This document shows, in pieces, positions 5,341 through 19,269 of a DNA stretch of 46,376 nucleotides. Made by a program: the position numbers and the translations under genes. This DNA is from a virus. The stretch lies in IMG/VR virus record IMGVR_UViG_3300002144_000382, positions 1 to 46,376 of that record; one strand, written 5' to 3'. Positions within the stretch are counted from its first letter, which is position 1. Each line of letters opens with the position of its first letter. The notes under the pieces were generated by a model that saw nothing but the letters and a program-made list of their open reading frames with translations, searched no databases and was not told the origin of the DNA.

Positions 5341-6101
5341 TGTTTGGCTCACACTTTTATCATGCAACAATGAGAAAATCAGTAGCTATATTTGGGACAC
5401 TTTTTAATAATATATCTGTTATTAGAAAAAGTTCGGATGGGGGTATACTTAACCAAATTAAGGTTCCTTTGGCTTATGGGCCTAAGCAGAAATATCTATC
5501 CCGGATTGAGACCGAACAAGGATCAGATACTCAAATGGCTATTAAGTTACCTCGTATGTCTTTTGAAATTACATCAATTGACCAGGATCTAAACCAAAAA
5601 CTTAATAAAAGTAATAAAATCGTAGAGAATCATGCTAGTGATGTTGGTAAAAAGAAGACTATTAAACAGATGGTTTCTTATAACATTTCAATGTCTTTAA
5701 ATATTATGGCAAAGAACCAGGATGATGGATTGCAGATAGTAGAACAGATTTTACCATACTTCCAACCCGATTATACGGTAACTATTAAGCCCATAGATTC
5801 CTTTGATTATAAGCAGGATGTTCCAATCGTTTTGAGTAGTGTTACTATAAGCGATGATTATGAAGGGGACTTTCTCACTAGAAGGGTTCTGGTATACACC
5901 CTAGAATTTACTATGAAAATGAAGTTTTTCGGCCCTGCTGGAGACCAGGTAGTAATAAGAGAGATTAGTCTGGATTATAAAGATATAGACAATCTGTTGT
6001 CAACTTTGATGGCAGAGGATTTAACTATTAACCCCACTACAGCAGATGAATCAGATAATTATACTGTGGTTACTTCAATAAGTGACAACAATTTTTCTTA
6101 G
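5340..6101 (+). CDS. gp15: Tail sheath stabiliser gp15 (tail terminator)
   Basis: A 253-residue protein (T4 gp15 is 272). The start MFGSHFYHATMRKSVAIFG and the following F-N-N-I-S-V and LAYGPKQKYLSRI stretches are characteristic of gp15. It caps the completed tail tube and sheath as a ring and provides the docking face for the head. Its ATG overlaps the gp14 stop by one base. Order 13-14-15-16-17 is exactly that of T4. Confidence 0.9.
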   Translation: MFGSHFYHATMRKSVAIFGTLFNNISVIRKSSDGGILNQIKVPLAYGPKQKYLSRIETEQGSDTQMAIKLPRMSFEITSIDQDLNQKLNKSNKIVENHASDVGKKKTIKQMVSYNISMSLNIMAKNQDDGLQIVEQILPYFQPDYTVTIKPIDSFDYKQDVPIVLSSVTISDDYEGDFLTRRVLVYTLEFTMKMKFFGPAGDQVVIREISLDYKDIDNLLSTLMAEDLTINPTTADESDNYTVVTSISDNNFS

Positions 6102-15566: not shown

Positions 15567-15591
15567 GCTTAAGTTTTTTAAATAAGCTTGG

Positions 15592-15619
15592 AAAAGGACT
15601 CTTCGGAGTCCTTTTTTTT
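15592..15619 (+). terminator. Rho-independent terminator with UUCG loop
   Basis: GGACTC-TTCG-GAGTCC with AAAA before the stem and eight T after it, 26 bp after the gp23 stop. The UUCG tetraloop makes it very stable. A second inverted repeat (AAGCTTA at 15565-15571 with TAAGCTT at 15583-15589) lies just upstream. It closes the capsid transcript and insulates it from the next late promoter 4 bp later. Confidence 0.95.
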
Positions 15620-16124: not shown

Positions 16125-16153
16125 TTTACTTTATGTCATTTTTATGGTATAAT
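16125..16153 (+). promoter_or_regulatory. Early/middle sigma70-type promoter for uvsY-uvsW
   Basis: TTTACT (16125-16130), 17-bp spacer, TATAAT (16148-16153) preceded by TGG (extended -10). It lacks the G-run found before the other early promoters. RBS ATGGAGAG lies ahead of the uvsY ATG. Confidence 0.75.
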
Positions 16154-16185: not shown

Positions 16186-16632
16186 ATGAATAACCTTGAG
16201 CAAATCCTTGAGATGTGGAAGAAAGATACCATAATCGATGAGATGGAGTTAGACGAAGCATCCAGAGATTCGGCTAAACTTCATGGAAAGTACCTTGAAC
16301 TATTAAGTGTAAATCGTCTTAGACATAAAAAGTTTGAGATGGACTTTAAGGTACTTTTAAAGAATAAATGGTTATGGTATAATGGGAAGTTAACAAAAGC
16401 GGAAATGGATGACCTTGGATGGGGTTATGATCCGTTAAATGGTCTTACAGTATTAAAGGGAGATATGGATAGATTCTATGATGCTGATCCTGATATACAA
16501 GCGGTGCAGGCTAAAATAGAATACCAATCTGAAATAAATGCAGCTTTAAAAGAGATTATAGATAATATTAAATGGAGACATAGTAATATTAAAAATATAA
16601 TCGATTGGAAGAAATTTACTAGTGGAATGTAA
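16186..16632 (+). CDS. uvsY: Recombination mediator UvsY
   Basis: A 148-residue, mostly helical protein (T4 UvsY is 137). The layout (EMWKKDTIIDEMELDEASRD..., K-x-L-L-K-N-K-W-L-W-Y-N-G-K, VLKGDMDRFYDADPDI, C-terminal IKWRHSNIKNIIDWKKF) follows UvsY closely. UvsY loads UvsX recombinase onto gp32-coated single-stranded DNA. Its stop overlaps the uvsW ATG (TAATG), giving a coupled uvsY-uvsW unit as in many T4-like phages. Confidence 0.88.
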   Translation: MNNLEQILEMWKKDTIIDEMELDEASRDSAKLHGKYLELLSVNRLRHKKFEMDFKVLLKNKWLWYNGKLTKAEMDDLGWGYDPLNGLTVLKGDMDRFYDADPDIQAVQAKIEYQSEINAALKEIIDNIKWRHSNIKNIIDWKKFTSGM

Positions 16633-18146
16633 TGCCTGAAATTATCCGGATTAAAAAGAAGAATGAAACGTTCTTGCACATCGACTGTGACCCTAGTACA
16701 CAGCACGAGTTAGCTGAACATTTTTGCTTCATGGTGCCCGGATATAAGTTTATGCCTGCATATAAGAACAGAATGTGGGATGGTAAGATACGTTTATATG
16801 ATCTTAGAAAAAAGACCCTTTATTGTGGTTTGTTTGATTATGTCAAAGAGTTTGCAGAGGTTCGAGGATATGGTATAGAGGTTGAAAATAATACTGTATA
16901 TGGAAGGCCGGATATACTAGAAAAACCTGATATAAAAGGGTTACTTGAAGATCTTAAGTTAACTGCCGGTGGGAGTATTATTACTCCTAGAGACTATCAG
17001 CTAGAAGCTCTGGAAGTTGCTTTATCTAAAACTAAATCTCTATTGCTTTCTCCTACTGCCTCTGGTAAAAGCTTAATTATATACCTTGCTATCCGATACT
17101 TCCTTAAGCATTACGATAAGCAAGTTCTTATTATTGTCCCAACCACATCTTTGGTTGAGCAAATGTACTCCGACTTTGCTGATTACTCTAAATGGGACGA
17201 AGGGTTTGATGCTGATACAGATATACACAAGATCTATTCCGGCAAAGAAAAATTCAACCTAGAAGCTAGCGTTATTATTACTACATGGCAATCGATCTAT
17301 AAACTGCCATTACCATGGTTTGAAAACTTCGGAATGGTGGTCGGGGACGAAGCCCACAACTTTAAGGCCAAATCACTGACCAGTATATTAGAAAAGTGTA
17401 ATGATGCAAAATATAAGATTGGTACAACAGGTACATTAGACGGAACAGCTACGCATCAGTTAGTATTAGAAGGACTATTTGGATCTGTGTATAAGGTTAC
17501 CACTACTAAAAAACTAATGGATAACCAGGATCTAGCACAATTGGAAGTTACTATTCTACTCCTAAAATATGGGGATGATTATAGAAAGGTAGTTTCTAAA
17601 CAGAAGTATCAAGAGGAATTAGATTTTATAGTTAGATACGAGCCTAGGAATAACTTCATATCTAATTTGGCTTTGGATCAAGATGGCAACACCCTTATAC
17701 TATTTCAATTTGTAGATAAACATGGCAAACCTCTGCATGCTATGATAGAAGAGAAAATAGCAGGTATGAACAGGCAATCTAGAAAGGTATTCTATGTCTC
17801 AGGGGAAACAGATGTTACAACCAGAGAAAGTATTAGAGCTATTACAGAAAACGAGGATAATGCAATTATTGTTGCTTCGGTAGGTACCTTTTCTACTGGT
17901 ATAAATATAAAGAGACTACACAATATAATCTTTGCTTCACCATCTAAGTCACAGATTAGGGTCTTGCAGTCTATAGGTAGAGGTTTAAGAAAAAGCTCAG
18001 ATGGTATCGATACTAAGGTATTTGATATAGCAGATGATTTACAATGGAAGAACAAAAAGAATTATACTCTGGAACATGCCAATATTAGGATCCAGATTTA
18101 TAATAAAGAGAAATTTGACTATAAAATATTTGAGATAAATATATAA
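16632..18146 (+). CDS. uvsW: DNA/RNA helicase UvsW
   Basis: A 504-residue superfamily 2 helicase (T4 UvsW is 503). It has an N-terminal UvsW-specific domain (MPAYKNRMWDGKIRLYD), Walker A SPTASGKS at 140-147, DEAH at 239-242, SAT-like TTGTLDG, and motif VI-like SIGRGLRKS near the C-terminus. It unwinds branched recombination intermediates and R-loops, switching replication from origin- to recombination-dependent mode. It is coupled to uvsY and abuts the next gene. Confidence 0.95.
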   Translation: MPEIIRIKKKNETFLHIDCDPSTQHELAEHFCFMVPGYKFMPAYKNRMWDGKIRLYDLRKKTLYCGLFDYVKEFAEVRGYGIEVENNTVYGRPDILEKPDIKGLLEDLKLTAGGSIITPRDYQLEALEVALSKTKSLLLSPTASGKSLIIYLAIRYFLKHYDKQVLIIVPTTSLVEQMYSDFADYSKWDEGFDADTDIHKIYSGKEKFNLEASVIITTWQSIYKLPLPWFENFGMVVGDEAHNFKAKSLTSILEKCNDAKYKIGTTGTLDGTATHQLVLEGLFGSVYKVTTTKKLMDNQDLAQLEVTILLLKYGDDYRKVVSKQKYQEELDFIVRYEPRNNFISNLALDQDGNTLILFQFVDKHGKPLHAMIEEKIAGMNRQSRKVFYVSGETDVTTRESIRAITENEDNAIIVASVGTFSTGINIKRLHNIIFASPSKSQIRVLQSIGRGLRKSSDGIDTKVFDIADDLQWKNKKNYTLEHANIRIQIYNKEKFDYKIFEINI

Positions 18147-18548
18147 ATGATGACCGATCAATCAATTGAAGAACTAAACATAAGACATTTTAAATTAAGG
18201 TCTGGGGATGAGATACTGGCATTAGTCTCTAATCGGAACAAAGATAATTGGATGGTGGAAGCACCCCTTTTAATCTCAGAAAATATGGCTGGGGGTAAAC
18301 AGTTATCTCACTGGTTCCCTTTCAGTACTACAAAGATGTTCAAGCTAATAGATTTTGATGTTATGCAACATTCATCGGTTGTATCAGAGATCAAGTCTAC
18401 CTACATTAAGTTCGCTTTGCGAACTCAACAAGTTGAACTCATTAAACAGAATGATGAAATACTCGAAGAGTATATGAATTCAAATAAGAGTGATGATGAT
18501 TCTTATTATGACCCCATTAATACTATGGATACAGAGACAATTCACTAG
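18147..18548 (+). CDS. Putative Sm-like fold protein
   Basis: A 133-residue protein starting immediately after the uvsW stop. Residues 12-45 (NIRHFKLRSGDEILALVSN...WMVEAPLLI) follow the Sm-fold pattern of hydrophobic strand, Gly-Asp/Glu turn and second strand. This matches the small protein at 33501 (VRLSSGEELIGDVKE...ITLSDAIILI). The C-terminal ~35 residues are acidic and disordered. Function unknown; an RNA-binding role would be an inference from fold alone. Confidence 0.6.
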   Translation: MMTDQSIEELNIRHFKLRSGDEILALVSNRNKDNWMVEAPLLISENMAGGKQLSHWFPFSTTKMFKLIDFDVMQHSSVVSEIKSTYIKFALRTQQVELIKQNDEILEEYMNSNKSDDDSYYDPINTMDTETIH

Positions 18549-18578
18549 TATATCATCCCTTCCCTGAGACGACACTCT

Positions 18579-18612
18579 ATTATATCATACTTTTTCATGT
18601 TTGTAAACCCCC
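18579..18612 (-). promoter_or_regulatory. Divergent early promoter on the minus strand
   Basis: Read on the minus strand: GGGGGTTTACA (G-run 18612-18608, TTTACA 18607-18602), a 17-bp spacer, then TATAAT (18584-18579). It matches the phage early promoter consensus perfectly, and its start site would be near 18572. It reads into the 3' end of the 18147 gene and uvsW in antisense. No plausible minus-strand gene follows. Confidence 0.75.
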
Positions 18613-18640
18613 TAAGTGAAATATATTTATTTACTAAATA

Positions 18641-18673
18641 GGGGTTTACATTCGCTTTGAAATATGGTATAAT
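18641..18673 (+). promoter_or_regulatory. Early promoter for gene 55
   Basis: GGGGTTTACA (-35 hexamer 18645-18650), 17-bp spacer, TATAAT (18668-18673) preceded by ATGG. RBS AAAGGAG lies at 18685-18691. The box TAGGGGTTTACA forms an inverted repeat with TGTAAACCCCCTA at 18602-18614, the -35 of the opposing promoter. Confidence 0.9.
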
Positions 18674-18696: not shown

Positions 18697-19269
18697 ATGA
18701 CAACTGAAAAAGCAAAGACTAAACCCCATTACATTGATAATAAACAATTCTCTTTAGCTGTGGTTGAATATGTTAAATCCGTTAGAGAAGCAGAGATTAA
18801 TGAAAAAGAAACCCCTAAGGTAACAAACTATATTGCTATGTGCTTTCTTAAGATATCCGAAGGCCTATCTCATCGTCCTAATTTTGTTCGATACACGTAC
18901 AGGGAAGAGATGGTGATGGATGCGGTTGAAAACTGTCTAAGAGCAGTAAACAACTATAGAATAGAAACTACGACTAGAACTGGCTTACCTAATGCATTTT
19001 CTTACTTTACTCAGATTTGCTTCTATGCATTTATTAGACGTATAACCAAAGAAAAGAAACAACAAGATATTAAATTTAGATTCATAGAGCGTATGGGTGT
19101 AGAAGACTTTATCCACACTGGCATGGATGATGGTCACTCTGCAGAGACCATGGCTTATGTAGATTCCCTTAGATCAAGAATTGATCAGGTCAAATATAAA
19201 GATGAGAAAATCAAGTCTTTTGCCAAAGAAGAAAAAGCAAGAGAAAAACTAGAACTCTTTATGGTATAA
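18697..19269 (+). CDS. gp55: Late-transcription sigma factor gp55
   Basis: A 190-residue protein (T4 gp55 is 185). Recognised by the region-2-like segment EEMVMDAVENCLRAVNNY...PNAFSYFTQICFYAFIRRITKEKKQQ, the reduced sigma core that binds host RNA polymerase and the TATAAATA element. The C-terminal KSFAKEEKAREKLELFMV is the hydrophobic/acidic tail that contacts the sliding clamp and flap in T4. Eight exact TATAAATA sites in this window are its expected targets. Strong AAAGGAG ribosome binding site. Confidence 0.93.
   Translation: MTTEKAKTKPHYIDNKQFSLAVVEYVKSVREAEINEKETPKVTNYIAMCFLKISEGLSHRPNFVRYTYREEMVMDAVENCLRAVNNYRIETTTRTGLPNAFSYFTQICFYAFIRRITKEKKQQDIKFRFIERMGVEDFIHTGMDDGHSAETMAYVDSLRSRIDQVKYKDEKIKSFAKEEKAREKLELFMV

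Follow-up and report, generated by a model that had tools for sequence, protein, structure and literature searches.

An early-type promoter conserved in marine T4-like phages points antisense into the uvsY-uvsW-Sm operon and may limit its expression

Some early promoters of lytic or temperate phages, lambda OOP among them, drive transcription antisense into the 3' portion of an adjacent gene and limit its expression. The promoter described here is likewise directed into the 3' part of its neighbour, but its sequence is unrelated, no terminator was found behind it and the limiting effect is a proposal. Known examples of antisense RNA in lytic T4-like phages are few. The first of them, according to a 2010 review (PMC2984593), was CfrI of cyanophage S-PM2, an RNA of about 225 nt that maps to psbA together with a homing endonuclease gene and was demonstrated experimentally (Millard et al. 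2010, as summarised in PMC2984593 and PMC5931967). Like CfrI, the present site would yield RNA antisense to co-expressed genes of a marine T4-like phage, but it lies at the Sm-like gene and gene 55, occurs family-wide and is known from sequence alone. Antisense transcription in Kyanoviridae has been mentioned in general terms (PMC10976474). In the literature searched, with subscription journals outside its coverage, no description of the site at the Sm-like gene and gene 55 was found, and no mapped 5' end or early RNA at this position.

In T4, the origins oriF and oriG are each made up of a promoter and an A+T-rich unwinding element, with oriF overlapping the promoter of uvsY; UvsW removes the R-loops formed at such origins (PMC3016281). 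The present promoter also neighbours recombination genes, and its transcript may stay on the DNA as at oriF, but it is of the early rather than the MotA type, the gene order is another and a skew signal is missing. Cyanomyoviruses lack MotA (PMC2984593). Compared with the sigma-70 early promoters of T4-like cyanophages (PMC2984593), the promoter shares hexamers and spacing with the sense-directed early promoters of its own genome, while the direction is opposite and, in two clades, a covarying repeat surrounds the start.

The window, i.e. the whole stretch of 46,376 nt that was analysed (IMG/VR record IMGVR_UViG_3300002144_000382), carries all of its likely genes on the plus strand. Behind the major capsid gene, at 15590-15617, stands a strong intrinsic terminator whose loop reads TTCG. 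Further along lie the recombination mediator gene uvsY (16186-16632; Pfam UvsY, E 5e-25), the helicase gene uvsW (16632-18146; Pfam UvsW_N and helicase domains) and an Sm-like (LSm) gene (18147-18548; phrog_471, E 9e-8), whose family profile matches 3by7 (E 1e-4) and a chain of the TIP60 cage (E 6e-6). Gene 55, encoding the late sigma factor, comes next (18697-19269; phrog_234, E 2e-50) and has its own sense early promoter at 18644-18673, which was found in 80 of 81 loci. Between the Sm-like gene and gene 55 the window contains no convincing intrinsic terminator. An early promoter (TTTACT-N17-TATAAT, 16125-16153, plus strand) stands just ahead of uvsY, where an early-like sense promoter was present in 39 of 50 loci. 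Since the operon owns an early sense promoter, the uvsY-uvsW-Sm unit is bracketed by convergent early promoters, the second of which lies on the minus strand downstream of the Sm-like gene.

This minus-strand promoter occupies 18608-18579 and reads GGGGTTTACA-N17-TATAAT (GTTTACA-N17-TATAAT) with GGGG directly before it, or, in its longer form, GGGGGTTTACA-N17-TATAAT (18612-18579). Its -35 element TTTACA bears the GGGGG extension typical of the phage's early promoters (18602-18612), and its extended -10 element is ATGATATAAT (18579-18588). The initial annotation had reported an exact minus-strand copy of the early promoter with a 17-bp spacer, and this was borne out: GTTTACA-N16-18-TATAAT occurs seven times in the 46-kb window against 0.02 expected from shuffles, six times on the plus strand and once, at the site in question, on the minus strand. 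All six exact sense copies have GGG or GGGG ahead of GTTTACA, and an end resembling ATGRTATAAT is common to the antisense promoter and the sense early promoters of the window; as both features are found on both, the antisense copy matches the phage's extended early consensus. Its hexamers and 17-nt spacing are those of the phage's own early promoters, which places it in the sigma-70 type. The annotation had called the antisense and gene 55 promoters back-to-back and also facing one another; the former description is right and the latter wrong, as the two diverge. It was correct that no minus-strand gene follows, and the start it expected near 18572 agrees with a 6-nt gap after the -10. The promoter thus lies on the strand opposite the genes that it faces, with no coding gene downstream, as is characteristic of promoters of cis-antisense RNAs. 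A megablast search of the region against named phages gave no match, and Rfam 15 at gathering score yielded no family at the site, the only match being a tRNA in C48C1.

Conservation within the clade of the window was assessed in 80 viral relatives retrieved by their gene 55 protein, giving 81 loci with the window. One of these (L071) ends 37 nt upstream of gene 55 and could not be scored, which left 80 testable loci. With T[TG][TG]AC[AT]-N17-TATAAT no further than 400 bp upstream of gene 55 as the pattern, the antisense promoter was exact in 79 of 80, and the sole deviating locus (L059) differs by one -10 base, TGTAAT for TATAAT. The remainder of the 650 kb of clade loci holds 94 plus-strand hits to the pattern and only two on the minus strand (L077:5949 and L080:11059), which belong to one lineage and are situated roughly 5 kb downstream from gene 55. 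Among 72 distinct sequences of the clade, the mean information per column was 1.98 bits in the -10 and 1.76 bits in the -35, compared with 0.64 bits in the spacer. Because the hexamers are kept while the spacer drifts, the antisense promoter is under selection.

Two further sets of 80 loci each, one retrieved through the gene 55 protein of S-PM2 and the other through that of the Pelagibacter phage HTVC008M, extend this pattern to more distant clades. A promoter with an exact TTGAC[AT] -35 was present in all 80 S-PM2-like cyanophage loci (7.0 in block shuffles) and in at least 77 of 80 HTVC008M-like loci (5.4 in block shuffles). With the further demand of a start-site TGT and a palindrome of four or more pairs, all 80 cyanophage loci still qualified, against 0.4 in block-shuffled and 0 in reversed sequence. 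Among the HTVC008M-like loci, promoter and TGT were found together in 75 of 80 (0.8 in block shuffles), and with the palindrome in 55 of 80 (0.2). The loci are mutually related, and these counts are therefore not independent events, although spacer and flanks differ widely among loci. Named carriers, mostly with an imperfect hexamer, are P-RSM6, S-H9-1, ACG-2014a, S-PM2, P-SSM7, S-ShM2, S-SZBM1, Syn30, Sf-FP1, C48C1 and HTVC008M; Melnitz has a weak version only. As judged from these genomes, the antisense early promoter is a fixed element in the architecture of marine T4-like phages (Kyanoviridae). The annotation had proposed, as one option, a relic of an inverted segment, and the antisense promoter is indeed an inverted copy of its gene 55 neighbour, with arms of 10 nt perfect and 15 nt near-perfect. 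Retention of this copy in close relatives, which the annotation itself had named as a check, was found in the clade and in both more distant ones. A relic or a chance promoter is practically ruled out by conservation in three clades despite the drift of the spacer, and given conservation this extreme the antisense promoter would be a working control element. A functional promoter at this site is, on the sequence evidence, almost certain.

The position of the promoter indicates which transcription unit it belongs to. In the clade of the window the Sm-like stop and the predicted antisense start beyond it are 23-42 nt apart (median 30), and the medians are 24 nt in cyanophages and 30 nt in HTVC-like loci. 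Some loci carry up to 945 bp of extra sequence between the antisense promoter and gene 55 (L013 and the HTVC-like L190, L199, L200, L212, L215, L216, L231, L233, L240 and L249), and the promoter still adjoins the Sm-like stop. As the insertions leave it in place there, the antisense promoter is anchored to where the uvsY-uvsW-Sm operon ends and not to gene 55. In L013 a small ORF lies in the inserted sequence (5696-6000), and similar insertions were seen in several HTVC-like loci.

Based on this arrangement, the reading that we prefer, with a probability of roughly 0.55, is that of a selected early promoter acting in cis, whose antisense RNA or head-on transcription limits or ends expression of the uvsY-uvsW-Sm operon. 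RNA polymerase on the minus strand would start 25-30 nt past the Sm-like stop and run into the Sm-like gene, the first that it reaches, then into uvsW and perhaps uvsY. Either the antisense RNA or the head-on encounter would fix the 3' end of the operon, lower or delay production of the Sm-like protein and UvsW until the early promoters are shut off, and shield the gene 55 promoter from sense transcription. Firing of the promoter and an untranslated RNA that acts in cis are what we infer from the sequence, the antisense effect being deduced from place and direction alone. T4 makes UvsW late because the protein removes origin R-loops (PMC3016281), and by analogy an antisense promoter active early could serve to restrain UvsW. 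The delay of the uvsY-uvsW unit that the annotation had suggested is plausible, given the operon's own early sense promoter and an antisense start locked to the Sm-like end rather than to gene 55. Nearly all of the marine T4-like phages examined carry the site, among them viruses of SAR11, Synechococcus and Prochlorococcus. It touches uvsY and uvsW, which steer recombination-dependent replication, the Sm-like protein and the late sigma factor. Were the preferred reading true, a core part of the early-to-late switch in very abundant ocean viruses would have been overlooked.

A second element, which the annotation had not mentioned, is an inverted repeat at the antisense start itself; it is strong only in the two sister clades. 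In the cyanophage clade the -10 is directly followed by AACTC-TGTCA-(A)GGGTT, and other members have AACAG-TGTCG-CTGTT, AACCT-TGTAG-AGGTT or AACTG-TGTAG-CAGTT. The HTVC-like repeats include CCGG-TATGT-CCGG, AACGG-TGT-CCGTT, AGACT-ATGT-AGTCT, GGTCT-ATGT-AGACC and CAGCG-TGTTGC-CGCTG. In both clades the stems thus vary with their pairing kept, and the start triplet TGT is constant. Arms from the same locus pair better than permuted partners, with z of 9.2 in HTVC-like loci (44 distinct sequences) and 6.3 in cyanophages (24 distinct), the p values of both being the floor of 5000 permutations; covariation in the clade of the window is weak (z 2.1, p 0.016). Changing stems with maintained pairing around a constant TGT make a structural prediction that can be tested directly in cultured phages. 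The repeat probably regulates the antisense promoter and may do so as a hairpin of the non-template strand, as an operator or as an RNA hairpin.

In the cyanophage and HTVC clades the palindrome extends from -6 to about +10. Since TGT stands at the expected transcription start, most of its 5' arm should fall outside the RNA, and the notion of a 5' RNA hairpin in all clades was dropped, as the cyanophage and HTVC-like repeat begins right after the -10 with its 5' arm upstream of the start. Read on the antisense strand, deviating pairs were G-T rather than A-C in 39 versus 0 instances in cyanophages and 28 versus 9 in HTVC-like loci; this excess favours folding of the antisense, i.e. non-template, strand, with many of the deviating pairs shared by descent. 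Being G-T when read on the minus strand, the deviating pairs also make a plus-strand RNA hairpin at the 3' end of the Sm-like mRNA less likely. These properties could also serve an RNA polymerase that occupies the antisense promoter or stalls on it, possibly with the aid of the inverted repeat; it would stop the sense polymerase just past the Sm-like stop and thereby act as the operon's terminator, with no role for its RNA. Such a roadblock would agree with the constant distance to the stop, with the lack of an intrinsic terminator there and with the largely untranscribed 5' arm, but the hairpin in the clade of the window is placed more downstream and would be part of the transcript, and we consider the roadblock unlikely. 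Tentatively, and with considerable doubt, the site may represent an undescribed architecture common to marine T4-like phages, with an antisense early promoter locked to the Sm-like end, in which transcription starts in the loop of a covarying non-template-strand hairpin that controls or stalls the polymerase, making it a convergent-transcription switch or a terminator for uvsY-uvsW-Sm.

The repeat in the clade of the window differs from those above in that it forms hairpins such as ATCC-GGGG-GGAT, which begin a few bases past the start site. In the window, a short inverted repeat GAG-TGTCGT-CTC can be read around the predicted start (18566-18577, minus strand); with only 3 bp, it would be the counterpart of the palindromes centred on the start in the sister clades. 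Folding further predicts a 5' hairpin of the antisense RNA, GTCGTCTC-AGGGAA-GGGATGAT (18552-18573, minus strand; -8.9 kcal/mol), which begins at the predicted start at about 18572/18573, and most members of the clade have a hairpin at the same place. Over the first 26 nt, the folding energy in this clade has a mean z of about -0.65 against shuffles, with the plus strand no different; because this is only mildly better than shuffles, a structured RNA is unproven here.

The predicted 5' hairpin, together with a conserved G/A-rich stretch and a GTATAC after the start in the clade of the window and the adjoining Sm-like gene, could instead point to a short RNA acting in trans, which would pair with other phage or host RNAs, perhaps helped by the Sm-like protein. 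To our knowledge, RNA binding by the phage Sm-like family is not known. The transcribed sequence varies between clades, while the promoter and its place by the Sm-like stop do not, and neither a conserved processing signal nor an Rfam family supports a small RNA. No conserved minus-strand terminator was found within about 480 nt downstream, where the one weak candidate (18266-18250) is at chance level. Synonymous codon identity shows no more than a slight increase over the final 40 codons of the Sm-like gene, a value confounded by close pairs. A trans-acting RNA is therefore a rather improbable explanation.

A replication origin of the oriF kind, at which an antisense R-loop would prime leading-strand synthesis, is suggested by the promoter near uvsW, by the A+T-rich spacer free of ORFs and by the purine-rich first 30 nt in the clade of the window. 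Purine richness is lost in the HTVC-like clade, however, and neither the window nor any of four whole genomes shows a shift of GC skew at the site. The promoter is moreover a full early type with a -35, while T4 origins use MotA middle promoters, and sense copies drive genes in some phages. An origin thus appears quite unlikely.

Expression of a small minus-strand peptide is very improbable. In the clade of the window the terminal His codon of the Sm-like gene (CAT/CAC) does supply an antisense ATG or GTG, but antisense ORF lengths scatter from 7 to 45 codons (10th-90th percentile), as local stop frequency predicts, and a small antisense ORF was rejected on account of this scatter. The Sm-like proteins of several cyanophages and of C48C1 have another residue than His at their end, and inspection by eye revealed no ribosome-binding site at a suitable spacing. 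As to the Sm-like C-terminus itself, it is almost always T-[IVL]-H in the clade of the window, with a variable tail before the tip; in an alignment of 32 members the final His never varies. C48C1 and several cyanophages lack this tip.

Returning to the cis-acting antisense promoter as the preferred reading, one observation speaks against confining the element to an antisense task. A scan of the collection for the cyanophage palindrome returned 80 loci. In 68 of these the hit is the divergent gene 55 copy, and the other 12 are cut contigs or copies ahead of other genes. S-PM2 has a second copy of promoter and palindrome at 162737 (around 3238 in L295), in sense orientation and 59 nt ahead of S-PM2p214. 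Further second copies (L338:153, L353:11453 and L370:1281, both on the minus strand, and L296:552) have sense genes 51-61 nt downstream. Because second copies precede sense genes, promoter and palindrome would constitute a promoter type that occasionally serves such genes, which supports a working promoter and cautions against limiting the palindrome to antisense action. The gene after the L338 and L353 copies matches phrog_447 and, weakly, homing endonuclease families.

The extended -35 appears to be lineage-specific, in the forms GGGGTTTACA, GTGTACA, CTGTACA and CGTTTACA (18602-18650 in the window; relatives L008-L087). A lineage's form is common to both divergent promoters of a locus, and this hints at a lineage-specific factor or a modified polymerase that reads the early -35.
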